DNA of 64,000 nt from Desulfuromonas acetoxidans DSM 684 (GTDB taxonomy: Bacteria; Desulfobacterota; Desulfuromonadia; Desulfuromonadales; Desulfuromonadaceae), in assembly GCF_000167355.1 (NCBI RefSeq), contig NZ_AAEW02000007.1, forward strand, positions 124,001-188,000. Direction: 5' to 3'. The notes under the pieces are model-generated. The model saw only the letters and a list, made by a program, of their open reading frames with translations. It ran no database searches and was not told where the DNA came from. Made by a program: the position numbers and the translations under genes. Positions within the stretch are counted from its first letter, which is position 1. Each line of letters opens with the position of its first letter. Below are positions 9,220 through 25,662 of the stretch, piece by piece.

Positions 9220-10026
9220 TCACCACTGAAAAGCAACCGAGCGTTTGCCGAGAATATAATCATCAAATATTTTCGTTGCCGGTCCTGCTGCCATGGCCAA
9301 GCAGGTATGGAGCGGCATCAGATGCTCTTCACGTGGATGGCAGTACCGTGCTCCCGGTGCTAACTGCCATTCCACCATGCGTTGCTCCCGATCCGGTTGT
9401 GAATAGTCGCCGGTGCATGTATCGATGAGCCAATCCTGAAACGCATCATTATGAGGATCAGGAGCACCCGCTCCCTGCCAATCGAATGCCTGCAGATTGT
9501 GGAAGGAAAATCCGGATCCGATCACCAGGATATTTTCCTGTTTCAACGCACGTAAAGCGCGGCCTAAAGCCAGATGCCCGGACGGATCGAGACCTTTCAC
9601 TAACGATAACTGCTGTGCCGGGATATCTGCCTCGGGATACATCAGCTTCAAAGGAATAAACACGCCATGATCAAAACCACGTTCGCAATCAATCGCGGCT
9701 GAAATTCCGGCCTGTTCCAACAACACTGTCACCTTTTCGGCCAGTGACGGATTACCGGGCGCCGGGTATTCGATGGTGTAGGCTTCGGCGGGAAACCCGT
9801 AATAATCATAGAACAGCGGCGGATTTTTCGCCCCCAGCACTGTGGCTTGTGTCTCCTCCCAATGGGCGCTAATCACCAGAATAGCTTCAGGACGATGCAG
9901 ACGGGAGGGCAGTTTTTTCATAAACTCGACCATCAACTGATGCGCGGTACCACCCAATAATGGCAACGGGCCCCCCCCGTGAGAAAAGTAGATGATTTGT
10001 CCTTGTTTGGGATGTGATGTCGTCAT
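9220..10026 (-). CDS. class III extradiol dioxygenase (LigB superfamily, YgiD-like)
   Basis: A 268-residue protein of the LigB/4,5-DOPA-dioxygenase family. The four family histidines are visible in YFSHGGGP, VISAHWEE, SFHNLQAF and REEHLMPLH, and the FDHGVFIPLKLMYP block is characteristic. Family role: metal-dependent ring cleavage of catechol-like compounds in the cytoplasm; the physiological substrate in most bacteria is unknown. The start MTTSHPKQG at 10026 is chosen for its AAAGGA site 9 bp upstream rather than the longer frame to 10065. The gene diverges from the TonB locus. Confidence 0.85.
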   Translation of the reverse strand: MTTSHPKQGQIIYFSHGGGPLPLLGGTAHQLMVEFMKKLPSRLHRPEAILVISAHWEETQATVLGAKNPPLFYDYYGFPAEAYTIEYPAPGNPSLAEKVTVLLEQAGISAAIDCERGFDHGVFIPLKLMYPEADIPAQQLSLVKGLDPSGHLALGRALRALKQENILVIGSGFSFHNLQAFDWQGAGAPDPHNDAFQDWLIDTCTGDYSQPDREQRMVEWQLAPGARYCHPREEHLMPLHTCLAMAAGPATKIFDDYILGKRSVAFQW

Positions 10027-10232
10027 GACGGTATCCTTTCGATAAACCAAAGATCCGTGGCACACCTATAACAGTACACCTCAACCTTGCAGAATCAAGA
10101 ATCTGTCGAGTTTTCTCTTCATCATGGTGAAATAACGCAGAAGGTTCTGTTGTGAAAATATTCTCACTCAGCTTTTCTCACTTTCTCCACTGAAAAAAAA
10201 CTCAAAATCGAAACACGCATCCCATTTACGAC

Positions 10233-10273
10233 CCGTATACATACCACATATGGTTTGCTTGTGATGTATACGG
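10233..10273. promoter_or_regulatory. inverted repeat upstream of the TonB locus
   Basis: CCGTATACAT (10233-10242) and ATGTATACGG (10264-10273) are a perfect 10-bp inverted repeat whose half-site centres are 31 bp apart, about three helical turns, in the shared upstream region of the dioxygenase and TonB-receptor genes. It may be a second regulator site. No family is assigned. Confidence 0.45.
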
Positions 10274-10302: not shown

Positions 10303-10331
10303 TTGCACACCGTTATATACGCTGCTATATA
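10303..10331 (+). promoter_or_regulatory. sigma70-type promoter of the TonB receptor operon
   Basis: The -35 TTGCAC (10303-10308) and -10 TATATA (10326-10331) are separated by exactly 17 bp, predicting a start near 10338 and a leader of about 140 nt. The -10 hexamer is the right arm of the first Mo-box-like palindrome. Confidence 0.6.
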
Positions 10332-10334
10332 ACC
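10311..10334. promoter_or_regulatory. Mo-box-like ModE operator 1
   Basis: GTTATATA-CGCTGC-TATATAAC is a perfect 8-bp inverted repeat with a 6-bp spacer (10312-10333). It matches the published proteobacterial Mo-box layout, CGnTATATA-N6-TATATAnCG. It covers the promoter spacer and -10, so bound ModE-molybdate would be expected to block transcription when molybdate is plentiful. Confidence 0.7.
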
Positions 10335-10344
10335 AGCCTTATTC

Positions 10345-10368
10345 CGTTATGTTCTCGAGTATATAGCG
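10345..10368. promoter_or_regulatory. Mo-box-like ModE operator 2
   Basis: CGTTATGTT-CTCGAG-TATATAGCG, a weaker copy of the same 9-6-9 layout, centred 34 bp downstream of operator 1, just after the predicted transcription start. Tandem sites three turns apart suit cooperative repression. Confidence 0.6.
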
Positions 10369-10476: not shown

Positions 10477-12456
10477 ATGTTTGCATCAAGATTAAAAATC
10501 GGCGGCATTGCTGTGCTGTTGTTTATGTCGACAACCGCTTGGTCGGCGACAAGCGTTAATGACGAAGCGGTATTTACGTTGGGAGAAGTCATTGTCACGG
10601 CGGAACAACAATCCGTCAACCTGGCCACTACGGTAACCGAAGTATCCACACAGGATCTACGGGATCGCGGCGCAGAAAACGTTGCTGAAGCGTTGCAATT
10701 TATGCCGGGTGTCGATGTCCAGACCGGCGGCAAAGGGCAATCCTATGTCAGCGTGCGCGGCTTTGAGCAGAGCGATCTGAAAGTGCTTGTCGACGGTGTT
10801 CCAGTGTATGAACAATATTTCCGTTCTCTGGACCTGTCACAGATTCCGGTTGACTCCATTGCTAAAATCACCGTCACCAAAGGGGCGTCATCCGTGCTTT
10901 ACGGCGCAAACACCATGGGCGGCGTTATCAATATCATCACCAAACGCGGAACCGCCACACCCCAGACCGACATCACCACCTCATTTGGTGATTACGGCAC
11001 CCAGAACTATTCCATCAGCCATGGCGGCAGCACCGATAAATTCAACTACTGGATGAACTACAGCTTCCGCGAAAGCGATGGTTTTCGTCTGTCGGATGAT
11101 TTTGACGAACACGGCAAGTTCGGCATCGACAGCTCCCTGGGTGAAGACGGCGGCAAGCGTGACGACAGCGGCTACATCAAACAGAGCGTCAACGCCAAAC
11201 TCGGCTACACCCCGACGGATGCGACCCAGGTCTACCTGACCATGAACTATATCAACGATGAAAAAGGGATTCCCGACAGCGACTGGTATTTCGACAACTG
11301 GCAGCAATGGATGGTCAGTCTGGTCGGTGAACACCGCTTTAACGAGCAATTGCGCATCAAGGCACGCACTTTTTATGTCGATCACGAAGACACCCTTAAA
11401 GACACCGACTACGCGTCCAGCGACTGGTTCTACAAGTCCGCTTACGACAACTACACCGTCGGCGGCGAAGTCCAGGCGTTCTGGGATCTTGGGTCGTACA
11501 GCTTCGTAAAAATGGGTGCCAATTTCACCCGCGATAACAGTAAACAGCAAGAGGTTCTCGCTCCGGGAGACAGTTGGCAGGATGCCGGTGACTTTGAGAG
11601 CGATACCTACAGCCTGTCGCTGGAAGATGAAATCACCGTCAATGACTGGTTGTCACTGGTGCTCGGCACCAGCTGGGATTACTACGACCCGCGAAAAGCG
11701 GATGATCAGCCGGTTCCCGACTCTGACGCGGTGTTCAACCCGCAATTGGGCATGGTATTTACCCTCAGCGACGCAACCTCAATCCATGCATCGGTTGGCA
11801 AAAAGACCCGTTTTCCCCATTTGAAAGAACTCTACAGCACCATGTCCGGCGGTAACCCTGACCTCAAGCCGCAAAAGACCATAGCTTACGAAATCGGCAT
11901 CACTCACGAGTTTACTAACCGCATCAACGGTTCCGTGGCCTATTTCTATAACGACGTTGAGGATCTAATCCAGAAAACCGGCGACAAAAAACTCAACACC
12001 GTTCACTACAGCAATGTGGCAGAAGCACGCATCCATGGTGTTGAAGCCACGCTGAATGCCAACCTGACTGAGCGATTTGAGGCGGTGTTCAACTACACGT
12101 ACATGCGTACCGAAGATAAACAGAACAACCGTGAGCTCGAAGGACGACCACGCCACCGCGCCAACCTCGATTTGCGCTACAACTTCCCGTTCGGTCTGCT
12201 GGTATCCACCCAGGCGTCCTACACCCAGCGCCAGTTTTACATCTATCAGGAGAGCAGAAAATCTCCGGAGATTTGGACGAAGGCACCGGATTATTTCCTG
12301 CTCAACCTGCGGCTGGAACAACAGCTGCCTGCGTTTGCCGGTATCGACAGTTCCCTGTTTTTGCAGGTCGACAACCTGACCGACAAAGATTACATCAATG
12401 TCGGTAACCTGATGCCCGGCCGTAACTTCCTGGTCGGTATGCACGCAAAATTCTAG
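10477..12456 (+). CDS. TonB-dependent outer-membrane receptor
   Basis: A 659-residue receptor with signal peptide MFASRLKIGGIAVLLFMSTT..AWSA and a TonB-box-like EVIVTA shortly after it. The plug domain follows (VTEVSTQDLRDRGAENVAEA, PGVDVQTGGKG, VRGFEQSDLKVLVDG, VTKGASSVLYGANTMGGVIN), then a 22-strand barrel ending in the terminal aromatic ...GMHAKF. The ATG at 10477 has AGGAGTGAGG upstream and is preferred to an in-frame TTG at 10378. The ligand is unknown. The Mo-box-like operators and the downstream genes suggest a molybdenum- or tungsten-containing complex, but homology alone would also allow a siderophore or haem. Confidence 0.9.
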   Translation: MFASRLKIGGIAVLLFMSTTAWSATSVNDEAVFTLGEVIVTAEQQSVNLATTVTEVSTQDLRDRGAENVAEALQFMPGVDVQTGGKGQSYVSVRGFEQSDLKVLVDGVPVYEQYFRSLDLSQIPVDSIAKITVTKGASSVLYGANTMGGVINIITKRGTATPQTDITTSFGDYGTQNYSISHGGSTDKFNYWMNYSFRESDGFRLSDDFDEHGKFGIDSSLGEDGGKRDDSGYIKQSVNAKLGYTPTDATQVYLTMNYINDEKGIPDSDWYFDNWQQWMVSLVGEHRFNEQLRIKARTFYVDHEDTLKDTDYASSDWFYKSAYDNYTVGGEVQAFWDLGSYSFVKMGANFTRDNSKQQEVLAPGDSWQDAGDFESDTYSLSLEDEITVNDWLSLVLGTSWDYYDPRKADDQPVPDSDAVFNPQLGMVFTLSDATSIHASVGKKTRFPHLKELYSTMSGGNPDLKPQKTIAYEIGITHEFTNRINGSVAYFYNDVEDLIQKTGDKKLNTVHYSNVAEARIHGVEATLNANLTERFEAVFNYTYMRTEDKQNNRELEGRPRHRANLDLRYNFPFGLLVSTQASYTQRQFYIYQESRKSPEIWTKAPDYFLLNLRLEQQLPAFAGIDSSLFLQVDNLTDKDYINVGNLMPGRNFLVGMHAKF

Positions 12457-12516
12457 TCTGATCCATTCCCCGGCGACGACTCACCACTGTCGCCGGGGCT
12501 TGTTTTGTGAGGAATC

Positions 12517-13353
12517 ATGGTTCTTAAACCTGTTTTCACCCTGTTGTTTCAGGGAGCGGCGGTCGTGTATTTGCTGGCCCTGCTTTTTTATGTGTTCAAA
12601 CAGTACCGTTGGGCGGGCTGGACAGTGACGTTTGGGCTGCTGGTTCACACCACCAGTCAGACTATCCGTTGTTGGCGTTACGGTTTCTTCACCCTGGAAG
12701 GGGCGTTTCATGCCGGTTTCTTTCTGCCCTGGTGTCTGGCCGCCCTCATCGTCGTCGCCTGGCAACGCAATAAGCGTCAAGACCACCACATCTTATCAGC
12801 ACTCTGGCCGCTGGTGGTTGTGATCGCGCTGGTGATTATCATCCCCCCCACCTGTCACAACCCGACGCCGTTTACCCCAACCTGGAGCGCCTATCTGTTC
12901 TTTATTTTTGAGAGTCTGGCCCACGCCTGCTTCATCATGAGCGGTTGGCTGGCGGTGCAATTTCTGCTTCAACGGCACCCCCAAGCCCCATTTCACGCCT
13001 ATGCCGTGTGGGGTTTCGTTTGTTTCAGTCTCGCTCAATTGGCCGGTTGCGCCTGGACCTATCTCGGCTGGGGCGGCTTGTTCCGCTGGGGCACCCGCCA
13101 CATGCATTCGGCAGCGTTGTGGTGTTTCTACTGCAGCTATCTGCATACGGCTTACCTGAAAAGATTTGGCCTGCGCAATAAAGCGCGTTTTGCCCTGGCC
13201 GGTACGCTGATCGCGTTGGTGCTGTTTTACGCCCTGCCGCTAATCCCGCGCCCCGGACGCACTCTGGCGAAACAGCAAACCGTGATGAATCATGCTCAAA
13301 CGGCTCCAGACCAAACCATATCGGCTATCTCATCCTCGCAGGAGGCCCTATGA
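12517..13353 (+). CDS. CcsA/ResC-like cytochrome c assembly membrane protein
   Basis: A 278-residue protein with about eight hydrophobic segments. The stretch YLGWGGLFRWGTRH near residues 184-197 resembles the tryptophan-rich haem-handling (WWD-like) region of CcsA/CcmC proteins, with histidines on either side (LLVHTTSQT, HMHSAALW, CSYLHTAY) that could be axial ligands. It partners a ResB-like protein, as in system II cytochrome c biogenesis, where the two export haem and attach it to CXXCH. It is shorter and more divergent than housekeeping CcsA. It follows the receptor by 60 bp and overlaps the next gene by 4 bp (ATGA), showing translational coupling. Confidence 0.75.
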   Translation: MVLKPVFTLLFQGAAVVYLLALLFYVFKQYRWAGWTVTFGLLVHTTSQTIRCWRYGFFTLEGAFHAGFFLPWCLAALIVVAWQRNKRQDHHILSALWPLVVVIALVIIIPPTCHNPTPFTPTWSAYLFFIFESLAHACFIMSGWLAVQFLLQRHPQAPFHAYAVWGFVCFSLAQLAGCAWTYLGWGGLFRWGTRHMHSAALWCFYCSYLHTAYLKRFGLRNKARFALAGTLIALVLFYALPLIPRPGRTLAKQQTVMNHAQTAPDQTISAISSSQEAL

Positions 13354-14114
13354 TCACCATGCTGTGGCAACGGCTTGCCAGCACCAAGCTGTGTTTCTGG
13401 ACACTCAATCTGTTATGTCTCAACCTGTTTATCGGCGGACTTTATGCCATGTTTGACGGTCGTTACCGACAACTGAACATGACGTTGTTCCCGCAATGGA
13501 TTCACGACAATTTCGACACCCAGTGCTGGTGGCTAATCACCCTGATGCTGGTGCTCGCGCTGCTCGGTGCCAACACTTTTGCCTGCTCTGTCCAACGCCT
13601 GCAGCAACTGTGGCAACGACGCCGGGCCAATAGCTGGCGCACCAATCTGGTGTTGCTCAGCCCGACGTTGATGCATCTGTGTTTTCTGCTGATTCTTTCC
13701 GGTCATGCCTTGACTGAATTTTCCGGATTAAAAGAGAATCTGCCCATCAGCACCGGTCAGCAACTGCATCTCGACAACACCGCCATTGAAGTGCTTTCGC
13801 AGAGCAACACCCTCTACGGCGACGGCCCGTTAAATGGTGTACTGCGACAAAGCCAAGCTCAACTGCGTTTCACCCGTAACGGCCAGCAGCATGAAACAAC
13901 GCTGCGGGTGCTGCACCCGGTCTACGACAATGGCGCCAGTTACCACCTGTTGCTGGCAAAAAAGCCGCGCCCCGGGCAACCACCCACACTTAAGATCGCC
14001 ATTAAAAAAGATCCCGGCCTGCCGCTGATCCTGCTCGGCAATGCGTTGATGAGCCTGTTGATGGCCATCTATTTTGTCACAATCCGTCACCATCGTTATG
14101 GAGGACAATCATGA
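13350..14114 (+). CDS. ResB-like cytochrome c biogenesis protein
   Basis: A 254-residue protein with N-terminal membrane segments (residues about 15-35, 60-82, 105-125), a periplasmic beta-rich stretch (LPISTGQQLHLDNTAIEVL, QAQLRFTRNGQQHETTLRV) and a last membrane helix near 222-245. This is the ResB/Ccs1 layout in miniature (housekeeping ResB is 350-550 aa). The opening LWQRLASTKLCFWTLNLLCL matches the 'LaSlklai.ll' start of ResB. It overlaps both neighbours by 4 bp, so expression is tightly coupled to the CcsA-like gene and the CXXCH protein that follows. Confidence 0.75.
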   Translation: MITMLWQRLASTKLCFWTLNLLCLNLFIGGLYAMFDGRYRQLNMTLFPQWIHDNFDTQCWWLITLMLVLALLGANTFACSVQRLQQLWQRRRANSWRTNLVLLSPTLMHLCFLLILSGHALTEFSGLKENLPISTGQQLHLDNTAIEVLSQSNTLYGDGPLNGVLRQSQAQLRFTRNGQQHETTLRVLHPVYDNGASYHLLLAKKPRPGQPPTLKIAIKKDPGLPLILLGNALMSLLMAIYFVTIRHHRYGGQS

Positions 14115-15199
14115 ATAAAACGCTATTCACCACCCTGGGCCTGCTGGCTGCTCTGTTGCTGTATGTGTTTATCAATCCGCACACATCGCCCACACCTGTG
14201 GCTGCTGAACCTGTCTCGCCAGCACCGGCTCCGGCTCCCACCCGGCCCAAAGTCCAGCCCGAGCCGATGCTCACCATCACCGGCTGTGTTAACCATCCAC
14301 TGCAACTGAGCTTGAGTGATCTGCAGCGCATGGAATCCACGGAAATTAAAATGAATGAAGTCACCAGCGACGGCAGTTTCCACGGCGTGTTTAATTACCG
14401 TGCCGTTCCCCTGCAGACTCTGCTCAACATGGCCGGACTGGAGCAGAAAGACTCGACGTTCAAAAAGCTTGTCGACGCCACCATCGTGCTCACTGACAAG
14501 CAGGGGAAAAAAGCCGTGCTGTCGTGGGGCGAGATCTACTACAGCAACCCGGCAGAGGTTACCCTGGCTTATCAGGTTGCGCCCATCTATCCGGTCAAGC
14601 GCAATTGTCAGAAATGCCATGATCCTGAGGATTACCGGTTTGCCATGGAACAACTTGGCCGCGACGTCCCGTTGCCGAAATTGCTGGTGACGGGTGACTT
14701 TTACACGGATCGTCTGCTCGAAGGGATTGTCACGATTGAGGTGATGGATGTGCGACCGAACATTGCCGTAGACCGTCAGGCGGCACTGCGTTCGGAGCGG
14801 ATCGAAATCAGCGGCGATCTGTCACGCCCCCTGACGCTTAACGATCTGTCCGGCTATCCCACCATCGATATCAACAAAAAGATTGTCGGCGTTGGTCGCG
14901 GCTATCACGGTCTGCACAGCTTTCGTGGCACCTCGCTGAGCAATGTGCTGACAGCAGCCGGTATCACACCGACGATCGACCAGGTGGTGATCGCCTGGGC
15001 ACCGGACGGCTATCGCGCCACCTTCTCCATGGGCGAGCTGTACTTGTCCGAGGCGGGTCGCAACATCATCCTCGCCGACATCAAGGACAATGCCGCTTTT
15101 GACACGGGCGGAAAAATGCGCATCATCGTCGGTCCCGATCATACCGATGATCGGGATGTTCAGGCTGTCACCAATATCGAAGTGATCAATCTGCAATAA
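14111..15199 (+). CDS. membrane-anchored protein with two molybdopterin-oxidoreductase-like domains and a c-haem motif
   Basis: A 362-residue protein: one N-terminal membrane anchor (5-22), a proline/alanine-rich linker (25-50), then two related domains. Domain 1 starts MLTITGCVNHPLQLSLSDLQ and domain 2 ERIEISGDLSRPLTLNDLSG; both then read like the small 'oxidoreductase molybdopterin-binding' fold (FNYRAVPLQTLLNMAGL; FRGTSLSNVLTAAGI). Domain 1 carries CQKCH at 166-170, a c-type haem attachment site. The cysteine that ligates Mo in sulfite oxidase is not evident, so cofactor binding is unproven. The ResB/CcsA pair directly upstream could serve this protein. It is expected in the periplasm. I know of no named family with this exact combination. 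Confidence 0.75.
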   Translation: MNKTLFTTLGLLAALLLYVFINPHTSPTPVAAEPVSPAPAPAPTRPKVQPEPMLTITGCVNHPLQLSLSDLQRMESTEIKMNEVTSDGSFHGVFNYRAVPLQTLLNMAGLEQKDSTFKKLVDATIVLTDKQGKKAVLSWGEIYYSNPAEVTLAYQVAPIYPVKRNCQKCHDPEDYRFAMEQLGRDVPLPKLLVTGDFYTDRLLEGIVTIEVMDVRPNIAVDRQAALRSERIEISGDLSRPLTLNDLSGYPTIDINKKIVGVGRGYHGLHSFRGTSLSNVLTAAGITPTIDQVVIAWAPDGYRATFSMGELYLSEAGRNIILADIKDNAAFDTGGKMRIIVGPDHTDDRDVQAVTNIEVINLQ

Positions 15200-15276
15200 C
15201 ACACCTGTCGGATGGGAGTGGAGAGTATCCAATATCTCCATATCCCGTCCGACATGTTCTAAAGAAAGGTTCCACC

Positions 15277-15711
15277 ATGGATTGGCTCAAACAAACCATC
15301 GACCTGGGCGTGATCGGGGTGCTGGTGACCATGAGCATCATTGCTCTGTCGGTCATCCTTGAGCGCGCACTGTTTTACCGCCAGCTCACCCTCACTGACT
15401 ACACCAGCAAGAAGGCGCTGGAATTAGCCCTGACCAGGCGACTGCACATCATCGCCACCATCGGCAGCAATGCCCCGTTTATCGGTTTGCTGGGCACAGT
15501 ACTGGGTATCATGCTGACCTTTTACACCATGGGCCAACAGGGCGCTGTCGATACCCACGCCATCATGACCGGCCTGGCCCTGGCGCTCAAAGTGACAGCC
15601 ATAGGCCTGGTGATCGCCATCCCGACAGTGGCGTTTTATAACGTACTGATCCGTCGCGCTAAAGAGATGCTGCTTGAATGGGAGATTCACCATGAACGAG
15701 AAGGAATTTGA
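15277..15711 (+). CDS. ExbB/TolQ-family proton channel, short form
   Basis: A 144-residue protein with three membrane helices. The family core is clear: IATIGSNAPFIGLLGTVLGIMLTF and later ALKVTAIGLVIAIPTVAFYN. The large cytoplasmic loop of E. coli ExbB (about 240 aa) is missing, as in the short ExbB forms of epsilon- and deltaproteobacteria. It forms the proton channel that energises TonB. The next gene, exbD, overlaps its end by 20 bp. It belongs to the operon begun by the receptor, after a 77-bp gap. Confidence 0.9.
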   Translation: MDWLKQTIDLGVIGVLVTMSIIALSVILERALFYRQLTLTDYTSKKALELALTRRLHIIATIGSNAPFIGLLGTVLGIMLTFYTMGQQGAVDTHAIMTGLALALKVTAIGLVIAIPTVAFYNVLIRRAKEMLLEWEIHHEREGI

Positions 15712-16069
15712 CGCCATCAACGTCATTCCGTTCATCGATATTCTGCTGGTGTTGCTGACCATTGTTCTGACGACATCGACCTTTATCACCACCGGTGCAT
15801 TACAGGTCAAACTGCCTCAGGCGACAGCAACGCAACCCAGTGTCGAAAAAACACTGTCGATCGTGATTAAAAAGGACGGACAGTTGTCGATTGACAAACA
15901 GCCCGTCGTCCTGTCGCAGATTGCCGAGCACTTAAACGGCATCAACCGTGACACGGCAGTGTTGCTTCATGCGGATCGTGACATCAATTTGCAACGCTTT
16001 GTTGAGGTGATGGCCGCCATCAAAGAGCAAGGCTTTCATCAGCTCAGCGTGCTGACCGAAAACCATTGA
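15692..16069 (+). CDS. ExbD/TolR-family protein
   Basis: A 125-residue protein starting [20 protein letters not shown]. The aspartate in the single membrane helix ([12 protein letters not shown]) is the conserved proton-path residue of ExbD. A periplasmic domain with [18 protein letters not shown] and [20 protein letters not shown] follows. The ATG at 15692 with GGGAG upstream is preferred to an in-frame ATG at 15674. It works with ExbB and TonB. Confidence 0.9.
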
Positions 16070-16077
16070 GGAGAACC

Positions 16078-16929
16078 ATGCGCCGGGAGATTCAGACTTT
16101 AATCCTCTCCACTGCCATCCATCTGAGCCTCGGGGCTGCTGTGGTGGGGTTATCCCAGCTACAACCAGCCCCAGCCCAAGAACTGCTGATCAGCCTGGAA
16201 GGGGTTGGTTTCAGCCGTGCTGTCACCACACAGCCGAAAAATTCCGCGGGTTATGCTGCGACGCCCTCGCCAACACCTCCTGAGACAAAGAGACAACCGA
16301 AGCTGCAACCGGAACCACAACCGGAACCACAACCGGAACCACAACCGGAACCACAACCGGAACCACAACCGGAACCACAACCGGAACCACAACCGGAGCC
16401 GCAACCAGAGCCGCAACCGGAACCGCAACCAGAGCCGCAACCGGAACCGCAACCAGAGCCGCAACCGGAACCGCAAAATGAAAACAATCTGGACCAGCGA
16501 CAGTCCGATCCCGTTGACCATCACCTTGAACAAAGCGCCATGAACACAGACACTTTGCACCGTGTTGAAACAGCGCCCCTGTCACCACAACAAGGCACGC
16601 CCGGTTCAGGCGGAGAAAGTCATGATAAAACGCAACGCGCAGAGGCATTAAACAACTATCTGGCCGCCCATTTCGCCTATATCAGCAAACAGATTCAGCG
16701 GGCCTTGCGCTATCCACGACAGGCACAACGCAAAGGGCTCGGCGGTCAGGTCAAAGTGCGCTTTAAGATCTGCTCGGATGGCAGCGTTCGGGACATTGAG
16801 GTGGTCGAAAGTTGTGGTCACAGCATCCTGGATAAAAATGCCGTCAAAACAGTCAGACGTGCAGCACCATTTCCCCCACCACCGATTGCAGCAGTGCTGG
16901 TGATGCCGGTTCGTTACCAGAACCACTAA
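16078..16929 (+). CDS. TonB-family protein with a long Gln-Pro-Glu-Pro spacer
   Basis: A 283-residue TonB protein. An N-terminal membrane anchor (about 5-27) is followed by a proline-rich periplasm-spanning segment made of some 14 QPEP repeats, then a C-terminal TonB domain: [20 protein letters not shown], then [20 protein letters not shown] and [20 protein letters not shown]. It transmits the ExbB-ExbD energy to outer-membrane receptors. Being last in the receptor operon it is probably dedicated to this receptor. The start is the ATG at 16078 with GAGGAG before it. Confidence 0.92.
16306..16474 (+). repeat. 12-bp tandem repeat encoding (QPEP)n
   Basis: About 14 units of CAACCGGAACCA and close variants (GAGCCG/GAACCG). 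The first seven or so units are nearly identical and the later ones diverge at third positions, so the number can change by slippage without breaking the frame. Confidence 0.9.
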
Positions 16930-20992: not shown

Positions 20993-21049
20993 CACAAAAC
21001 GGCATAATCAGCCCAACATGTGGTGCTATTCCCTGTCTGAGAACCCGTA

Positions 21050-21205
21050 TCCGCGAGGTGCAGCCAGTTATAGCCGGTGACATAAGTATCTGACTTGGAA
21101 AGGTAAGCTTTCCTCACAGTGGCGGGTCCGCGACGGATTTGCACCGTCTTCCTTAAGTCACAAGCCGTTTTTTGAGATAAAACACTGCAGGGAGTAGAAA
21201 ACAAT
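21050..21205 (-). ncRNA. cobalamin riboswitch-like element
   Basis: On the minus strand the conserved core is present in order: GGAAGACGGTGCAAATCCGT, CGCGGACCCGCCACTGTGAG (B12 box) and AAGTCAGATAC, with a closing pair at the ends. The form is short between the B12 box and the GTCAGA segment. The nearest downstream genes are the 44-codon frame and the XRE-cupin regulator. No clear terminator follows, so the control mechanism is open. Ends are approximate. Confidence 0.8.
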
Positions 21206-23232: not shown

Positions 23233-23497
23233 CTGGAAACTTCCTCAAATTGATCACTAAAAACATCGTTACGTAAATTGCCAACGATTAAAGATTATAC
23301 ACAGTTGTGGATCATTTTTGTTTTTTGGATAAAAAATATTCTCCTCAGCAAGCCGAACAATTCAGGGCTATTGATATTACCGCACAGAAACTATTGACAT
23401 CCATAGGCGTGCCTGATAGACACAATCACAAAATTCGATCCATGACTCATTACGGTTTGATGGATCGACAACAAACGATTTCAGATGCTCTCACGAG

Positions 23498-23640
23498 CTT
23501 AATAGGGAACCCTGTGTAATTCAGGGACGGGCCCGCCGCTGTAACCGAGGACGAAAGCCGCTTGATGTCACTGCCGAAATTCGGTGGGAAGACGTGGCCG
23601 GTAGGATGATCCGGAAGTCAGAAGACCTGTCTGAAATTTG
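23498..23640 (+). ncRNA. cobalamin riboswitch upstream of the btuB-like receptor
   Basis: Canonical order of conserved parts: AATAGGGAACCCTGTGTAAT, GGGACGGGCCCGCCGCTGTA (B12 box), CACTGCCGAAATTCGGTGGG (P-stem) and GTCAGAAGACCTGTCTG. It is followed by a terminator hairpin, then the receptor gene, the normal layout for B12-repressed outer-membrane cobalamin uptake. Confidence 0.95.
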
Positions 23641-23699
23641 GTAATGCGCGCTCCTAAGGCAGGGAGACGTATTGAATGTCTTGTGGATAGAAAAGGGAT

Positions 23700-23735
23700 A
23701 TCCCAGGTCGATGTGTATTCGGTCTGGGATTTTTT
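23700..23735 (+). terminator. riboswitch expression-platform terminator
   Basis: ATCCCAG (23700-23706) pairs with CTGGGAT (23724-23730), followed by T5. It lies between the aptamer and the receptor ATG, so bound cobalamin would favour premature termination. Confidence 0.8.
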
Positions 23736-23775
23736 ACGCCCGGACCCCAGGAAGATTTTGGGAGGAGCGTACCCC

Positions 23776-25662
23776 ATGAAAACAATGCAATGGAATATCC
23801 TGATGGCTGCCCTGCTGTGCGTCATCATGGCCGGGACCGGCAGCGTGTGGGCCGAAGAAGCAGACCAGGAGTATGATCTCGGTCAGATCATTGTCACTGC
23901 TGACCGTTATCCGGTCAACGAACAGAAAAGTGCCCGCTTTGTCACGGTGCTGACGGCAGAGCAGTTGGAAGAATCCGGAGGGAACAACGTCATTGATGCC
24001 CTCAAGCGCAGTGGCACGCTATCGTACAAATCGTTAGCGCCGCTCGGAGTCAGTCGCATGGGTATGAAAAGCGAAGTCAGCATCCGCGGTTTGGAAGATG
24101 GCGAGCTGGTATTAATCAACGGCGTGCCGATTCAAAGCGCCTCCGGAGGCAGTTACGACCTCAACGCCATCGGCCTTGATCAGATCGAGCGGGTTGAAAT
24201 CCTCAGTGGAGCCGCATCGACCCTGTACGGTGCCGATGCCATGACCGGTGTCATCAACATCATCACCCGCCAACCCGGCCAACAATGTTCCCCCTACGCC
24301 AGCGTCGAATTAGGCGAACTCGGTTATCAGAACCACAGCGTCGGTCTGACCAGCGAAAAGCTCAACCTCGGAGCCCGCTATCAGCGCCTTGACGGCATCG
24401 ATACCATCTATCGTAAATTTTCAGCCAAGAGTCCCTACCGCTATGACATGCAGGCCACCGATCAGCTCTCGGCCAGCCTCAATTACCGTCCGGCAGAGCA
24501 CTGGACCATCGACTACTTGGTAACAACCATTGAAACCGGCTTTGTTAAACGCTATGACAGTCCGAGCAAGGAGCCGATTTTCTATGATCAAGATCAGGAA
24601 AAGCACTTTGCCGACATCCGCTACGAGGCAGACAATGTTGCCGTCAAAGGTTTCTATTCCTTTGATGAGCTGACCAAAAACCAAACATCACCCAGTGCCC
24701 CGGAGGAAAAACGCCGCAACTACAACTACGGTTTCAGTGGCGATTACCGTTTTAACGCCTTCAGCCTGAAGCAAACCATCGGTGCAGACATCACCCGCCG
24801 GGTGGCCGATTACGACTACTCCTACGGTCGCCACGCCCGTGATGACAGTGCTCTGTTCTGGCAGGTGAAGCGCCCTTTCTTTGAGCGCCTGCTCGTCAGT
24901 GCCGGAGCGCGGGAACAATGGATTAATGGCTACGATGGTGCCCGCAACTACAGTCGTTTTCTGCCCAGTGCCGGACTCAACTTCGAGGTAACATCGGCTT
25001 TACACCTGTTTGCCAATGCCGGTAAAGCATTTCGCGCCCCCAGTTTCAATGATCAGTATTATTCCACGGCAACCCGCGTCGGCAACCCCGACCTGGAACC
25101 TGAAGAGGGTTGGACCTATGAAGCCGGGATGAAATACGACCACCCTGCCATCCATCTGCGTGTGGCAGTGTTCCTGATGAAGTTCGAAGACAAAATCATT
25201 TCGTACGAACGCGCTGATGGGATGAACAGCTATTACAACGCCGGTGATTACGAAAACCAGGGCATCGAATGGAAACTGGTCTTCGCTCCCTTTCATCAGG
25301 GACAAGGTGTCTGGAAAAATCTGTCTTTTTCAGCGCGCGGTTTTGTCGCCAACCCAAAAGCCGACGATAGCGACGGTGTCCTGACCCAGGTGGGGCCACG
25401 GGTCCAGACCGCCTTTGGCATAAAATATCTGGGCCGTCTGTTCACATTCAATGTCGATCTCATCAATCTTAATGACCGCGAAGACGACTTGGAAAGTGAA
25501 ATCACCGTCAACCTGTACAGCCGGTATCAACTACCGGTGGGTGCTCTCACCTTCAGCGTCGACAACCTGTTCGATGAAGAGGTTGTTACCGGAGGCTCCA
25601 CCACATCGGAATACTATGGGTTGGGCCGCCTGATCAAAGCAGGCTACGAAATTCGTTTATAG
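23776..25662 (+). CDS. TonB-dependent receptor, BtuB-like (cobalamin uptake)
   Basis: A 628-residue outer-membrane receptor. Signal peptide ends near VWAEEAD; a TonB-box-like QIIVTADRYPV follows. Plug motifs are VTVLTAEQLEESGGNNVIDA, SIRGLEDGELVLINGVPIQS and EILSGAASTLYGADAMTGVI; the barrel ends ...AGYEIRL. The B12 riboswitch directly upstream supports cobalamin or another corrinoid as ligand. The ATG at 23776 has GGAGGAG upstream; an in-frame ATG at 23638 lies inside the riboswitch and is rejected. No BtuCDF genes follow, so the inner-membrane system must be elsewhere. Confidence 0.88.
   Translation: MKTMQWNILMAALLCVIMAGTGSVWAEEADQEYDLGQIIVTADRYPVNEQKSARFVTVLTAEQLEESGGNNVIDALKRSGTLSYKSLAPLGVSRMGMKSEVSIRGLEDGELVLINGVPIQSASGGSYDLNAIGLDQIERVEILSGAASTLYGADAMTGVINIITRQPGQQCSPYASVELGELGYQNHSVGLTSEKLNLGARYQRLDGIDTIYRKFSAKSPYRYDMQATDQLSASLNYRPAEHWTIDYLVTTIETGFVKRYDSPSKEPIFYDQDQEKHFADIRYEADNVAVKGFYSFDELTKNQTSPSAPEEKRRNYNYGFSGDYRFNAFSLKQTIGADITRRVADYDYSYGRHARDDSALFWQVKRPFFERLLVSAGAREQWINGYDGARNYSRFLPSAGLNFEVTSALHLFANAGKAFRAPSFNDQYYSTATRVGNPDLEPEEGWTYEAGMKYDHPAIHLRVAVFLMKFEDKIISYERADGMNSYYNAGDYENQGIEWKLVFAPFHQGQGVWKNLSFSARGFVANPKADDSDGVLTQVGPRVQTAFGIKYLGRLFTFNVDLINLNDREDDLESEITVNLYSRYQLPVGALTFSVDNLFDEEVVTGGSTTSEYYGLGRLIKAGYEIRL

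Follow-up and report, generated by a model that had tools for sequence, protein, structure and literature searches.

Molybdenum and tungsten are usually assumed to diffuse through the outer membrane as oxyanions, and active uptake is assumed to take place only at the inner membrane. A 64-kb stretch of the Desulfuromonas acetoxidans DSM 684 genome, which we refer to as the window, contains an operon that is headed by a TonB-dependent outer-membrane receptor gene and that is preceded by what the initial annotation described as operators of the ModE regulator. This raises the questions whether the operon belongs to the ModE regulon and, if so, which substrate its products bring across the outer membrane.

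Two predicted ModE boxes overlap and follow the promoter of the operon

Predicted ModE box 1 (positions 10312-10333, plus strand) is the perfect inverted repeat GTTATATA-N6-TATATAAC. Predicted box 2 (10346-10367, plus strand) begins 34 bp downstream of box 1 and has three mismatches with respect to the same palindrome. The repeat at the promoter and the spacing of its second copy are therefore as initially annotated. The consensus of the E. coli-type Mo-box, as far as it is quoted in PMC545781 from Studholme and Pau (2003), is CGnTATATA-N6-TATATAnCG. Two matches with at most three mismatches were observed in the window, compared with 0.03 expected from shuffled windows, and in the entire 3.8-Mb genome no site other than box 1 matches with at most two mismatches.

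The window was also scored with a weight matrix trained on 11 boxes located upstream of modE in other families; ten of these are matches with at most two mismatches found in 147 related genomes, positioned 0-130 bp before or at the modE start, the eleventh is one additional modE promoter, and no TonB site was included. Box 2 ranked first (28.0 bits) and box 1 second (23.9 bits), whereas the third-best match in the window scored 9.4 bits and the top score over 60 shuffles was 14.5 bits. The Mo-box layout proposed initially is thus supported by a profile derived from independent modE promoters; the view that the downstream copy is the weaker one is not, since box 2 outscores box 1 when the flanking CG is counted. 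A match at C10:21825 was rejected as a ModE box because it is located within a coding region and scored only 4.6 bits.

An alignment of the promoter region of five Desulfuromonas species revealed that both palindromes have been kept despite single-base changes within them; in one species (G009) box 2 is near-perfect and box 1 is weaker. In addition, we searched ten whole Desulfuromonas genomes with profile R1, which is based on the same modE-promoter sites and on which the genome-wide ranking of the boxes depends. Boxes 1 and 2 were the top matches in each of the five genomes that contain the operon; a matrix scan of the genome had been suggested earlier as a check.

The putative promoter (10303-10331, plus strand) consists of a -35 sequence TTGCAC at 10303, which has three of the six consensus bases, a 17-bp spacer and the -10 sequence TATATA. 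The -10 may be either TATATA (10326-10331) or TATAAC (10328-10333), and both candidates are located inside box 1. Box 2 lies directly 3' of the inferred transcription start (~10338). We consider this promoter weak because it was absent from the listing of a promoter scan; the position of the -10 within box 1 stands, but the earlier description of a good promoter was overstated. No Moco or cobalamin riboswitch was detected with Rfam in the operon leader. Two cobalamin riboswitches are present elsewhere in the window (21032-21179, minus strand, and 23466-23648, plus strand), and the latter precedes another TonB receptor gene (23638-25662) that likely encodes a B12 receptor. Upstream of the promoter we observed a perfect 10-bp inverted repeat, CCGTATACAT-N21-ATGTATACGG (10233-10242 and 10264-10273), both arms of which are recognisable in four of the five Desulfuromonas species; it may be bound by a second regulator.

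The idea that the boxes are chance AT-rich sequences, or the operator of some other regulator, can draw on this unexplained upstream repeat. It can hardly be reconciled, however, with the expected frequency of such matches per window or with the top genome-wide ranking of the boxes in five species by an independent profile, and we regard it as very remote. At the level of sequence, the assignment of both boxes to the ModE regulon is supported: the palindrome is better than expected by chance and is kept in relatives that possess modE, although binding data are lacking.

ModE and its predicted targets in the genome

In agreement with this assignment, modE, whose absence would have spoken against the initial annotation, is present. 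The genome encodes one full-length ModE protein, with a Helix-Turn-Helix and two molybdate-binding domains, and its gene adjoins mobB. The residues of the recognition helix and the wing are those of E. coli ModE (SYKSAWDA..MN and TGG..GGG).

Boxes were found at two of the 13 TonB receptors of the genome, the window receptor and one on contig C3 (17.7 bits; the C3 receptor); none of the others scored above 0.7 bits. No ModE box was found at the modE, modCB and modA loci of this genome (the modA loci scored at most 0.2 bits). This agrees with Rodionov et al. (2004), who reported a full-length modE in Desulfuromonas without an E. coli-type site at the mod operons (PMC545781). Because boxes are present at two receptors and at none of the molybdate ABC genes examined, a ModE that seemed orphan in 2004 may have its targets in the receptor operons. 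If true, the Desulfuromonas regulator would gain its missing targets. The regulon would then resemble that of E. coli in its consensus and in the recognition helix of its full-length ModE, but would differ from it in that the target is a TonB-receptor operon and that the examined mod genes, the usual position of the box, are without one.

The C3 receptor gene heads an ECF-transporter operon (L018:5762-11152), which also encodes an S-like component without a Pfam hit and an IDDTD protein (methanogenesis marker 11/TiaS-like).

The operon encodes a receptor, its energising proteins and a SUOX-fold protein

The operon spans positions 10480-16929 and comprises seven genes, all on the plus strand. 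The receptor (10480-12456) contains a plug (PF07715) and a barrel (PF00593) domain, both over the cut-off, and its N-terminal region contains a motif, EVIVTA, that resembles a TonB box. By sequence, its nearest solved structures are those of BtuB, but the receptor failed the BtuB family test (TIGR01779, 165.9 versus a cut-off of 599.7 bits). The operon also encodes ExbB (15277-15711; TIGR02805, over the cut-off), ExbD (15674-16069) and TonB (16066-16929). No ABC importer genes of the ModABC, WtpABC or TupABC types are present in the region 10480-16929.

Two membrane proteins are encoded directly downstream of the receptor gene, a CcsA/HemX-like protein (12517-13353; Cytochrom_C_asm) and a short ResB-like protein (13350-14114), the latter below the Pfam cut-off for ResB (21.7 versus 24.6 bits). 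The test for System II cytochrome c biogenesis failed, as TIGR03144 scored 36.9 versus 187.6 bits and ResB was also below its cut-off. These proteins may mature the CxxCH-containing protein described next.

The gene at 14111-15199 encodes a periplasmic protein with two sulfite-oxidase-fold (SUOX) domains according to its structure, which is predicted with good confidence (pLDDT 82). This model is structurally most similar to sulfite dehydrogenases and to PruR, a pterin-binding protein (Z ~14-15 for PruR). Of the two features of the sulfite oxidase family, the fold is thus present in the prediction but the conserved Mo-ligating cysteine is not: no cysteine is invariant among the SUOX-like proteins, and the only cysteines of the window protein are C59 and the pair of a single CxxCH haem motif. 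This motif is found in 33 of the 39 proteins of the branch to which the window protein belongs and in none of the 33 proteins of the other branch. The window protein resembles PruR in that it has a SUOX fold, lacks the Mo-ligand cysteine and is secreted. It differs in having two domains and a haem motif and in being encoded in an uptake operon, whereas PruR is a single domain of ~170 aa that is paired with DcpA. The pocket of PruR is truncated and is thought unable to take Moco (PMC13259868).

Plasmid records contained no match to the SUOX-like protein. At L159:7914-9716 and at other f4 and Geobacter loci, the secreted protein combines the SUOX fold with a fused tetrapyrrole-methylase domain (PF00590, 1.8e-37), which is odd in a periplasmic protein.

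Relatives of the operon are associated with molybdate and tungstate transport genes

SUOX-like relatives were found at 78 loci, 47 of which contain a TonB receptor gene and 22 a Mod, Wtp or Tup gene. At L175 the genes for the receptor, CcsA, ResB and the SUOX-like protein are in the same order as in the window operon and are divergent from tupAB, and at L180 the gene order is receptor, SUOX, tupABC. Several Bacteroidales loci (L208 and others) have the order modE, wtpA, two small genes, receptor, SUOX, wtpB, wtpC and moeA. In these assignments WtpA scored over the NCBIfam cut-off, WtpB, WtpC and TupA were best hits below the cut-off, and TupB and TupC were second-best hits. The context with molybdate or tungstate transport genes that a Mo/W uptake system is expected to have in independent lineages is therefore present, and the Mo/W uptake role suggested in the initial annotation is supported in so far as gene neighbourhoods can do so.

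In the receptor tree, the window receptor, the tup-linked receptors and the receptors of the C3/ECF type form one clade (support 98/96), apart from the other receptors of the genome; Wtp-linked and FecBCD-linked receptors fall outside it. The tree does not support the Bacteroidales receptors as orthologues of the window receptor, and since they are not members of its clade the link to the Bacteroidales depends on the SUOX-like protein.

Additional associations were observed. In G059, the receptor-ECF operon begins with modE, in front of which lies a box, and in G006 such an operon follows moaA. In two relatives from another family (G139 and G140), boxes occur together with TonB receptors and transporter genes of the FecB/FecCD type, a transporter type (type II) that includes the molybdate importer MolBC-A. 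Each of the 17 relatives in which a SUOX-like match was found contains modE, versus 93 of 147 overall, without correction for relatedness. Family f4 operons at first appeared to be without boxes, but this impression was revised as weaker boxes (8.5-18 bits) were found upstream in most f4 loci.

A second modE adjoins a nifH-like nitrogenase cluster at L125, L127 and L133 (G002, G008 and G007, respectively). In G008, ~14 kb separate the second modE from a TonB receptor gene that is accompanied by FecB/FecCD-type genes and a box with three mismatches.

Proposed function and alternative explanations

The explanation that we favour, with a probability of about three in four, is that the operon, under ModE control, serves the TonB-dependent acquisition of molybdenum and/or tungsten; binding, expression and transport remain undemonstrated. 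The boxes and their conservation, the presence of ModE, the order of the genes and their context are supported by computation; repression, the class of substrate and what the SUOX-fold and CcsA/ResB-like proteins do are inferred. The central claim of the initial annotation is thereby upheld, on stronger evidence than was stated there. Because the -10 lies within box 1 and the inferred start just ahead of box 2, repression by molybdate-loaded ModE appears likeliest: when molybdate is ample, ModE dimers on both boxes would block transcription, and a shortage of Mo or W would allow it. ExbB, ExbD and TonB from the same operon would then energise the receptor, which would import into the periplasm a compound of Mo or W whose size or dilution rules out entry through porins. 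There, the two-domain SUOX-fold haem protein would probably bind or process this compound; the oxyanion would be carried inward by ABC importers of the molybdate type, whose genes are located elsewhere in the genome. As TonB-dependent transport is costly, the bare oxyanion is a less plausible cargo than a chelate, a thiometallate or a metal-pterin; the inferred substrate is probably chelated Mo or W, scavenged when scarce.

The main rival is that the ModE-controlled operon takes up an iron chelate or a tetrapyrrole, i.e. haem or a corrinoid, that is needed more when Mo is low, for instance upon a switch of enzymes. The CcsA/ResB-like genes, the CxxCH motif and the tetrapyrrole-methylase fusion in relatives would also fit such a substrate, and BtuB is the nearest solved receptor. 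Conversely, the window receptor scores far below the B12-receptor cut-off, the leader lacks the cobalamin riboswitch that the window has twice elsewhere, and relatives of the operon are located within tungstate and molybdate transporter loci, so that we consider this rival improbable, though not negligible. Less credible still is that ModE acts as an activator and switches the operon on at plentiful molybdate in the service of periplasmic molybdoenzyme assembly. ModE does activate some promoters and a SUOX-fold protein is encoded in the operon, but this protein lacks the ligand cysteine and the positions of both boxes suit repression.

Within the favoured Mo/W acquisition reading, the cargo might be pterin-bound, i.e. 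free molybdopterin or tungstopterin or Moco from lysed cells, with the SUOX-fold protein as its periplasmic carrier. Two cysteine-less domains structurally near PruR point in this direction, and a large cargo would suit a TonB receptor; the truncated PruR pocket and the oxyanion importers that neighbour the relatives do not, and pterin binding has not been demonstrated beyond similarity of fold. We therefore regard this special case as possible but rather unlikely. Several observations also weigh against Mo/W acquisition as such: there are no binding or expression data, the window operon is without a Mo/W importer gene of its own, the boxes of f4 are weak and the Bacteroidales receptors lie outside the window-receptor clade.

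Relation to known uptake systems

The known molybdate and tungstate importers ModABC, WtpABC and TupABC are covered in PMC6147048, in which TonB is unmentioned. The present system is related to them in that relatives of the receptor and of the SUOX-like protein are located inside or beside such operons, but the window operon encodes an outer-membrane step and no ABC importer. With BtuB and siderophore receptors it has in common the plug, the barrel and energisation by TonB; unlike BtuB, it is combined with ModE boxes. We found no earlier description of TonB-dependent molybdate or tungstate uptake in the open literature, subscription papers, RegPrecise and similar regulon databases being outside the scope of the search. 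With its relatives among Mo and W transport genes, the operon is indicative of an active route for Mo/W across the outer membrane that has not been described so far. If this is true, an energised step there would mean that in metal-poor, sulfidic sediments the real substrate is a chelated or thiolated form or a cofactor. In our estimation it is an even bet that anaerobic bacteria possess a set of dedicated Mo/W TonB-dependent transporters that are ModE-controlled and joined to Mod/Wtp/Tup, FecBCD-type ABC or ECF importers. In this reading, a SUOX-fold protein that lacks the cysteine, and that in the present case bears haem, would carry a thiometallate, a metal-pterin or a chelate of Mo or W through the periplasm.

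Other features of the window and genome

A gene for a LigB-type extradiol dioxygenase (9220-10065, minus strand) is divergent from the operon. This arrangement is kept in three other species, and such an enzyme is strange for an anaerobe. Elsewhere in the genome, a locus without a ModE box (L019:3853-9444, C6) encodes an XRE-PBP_like regulator, modA, a Mop protein and a TonB receptor with a FecB-like protein; it is maybe a second Mo-responsive system under another regulator.
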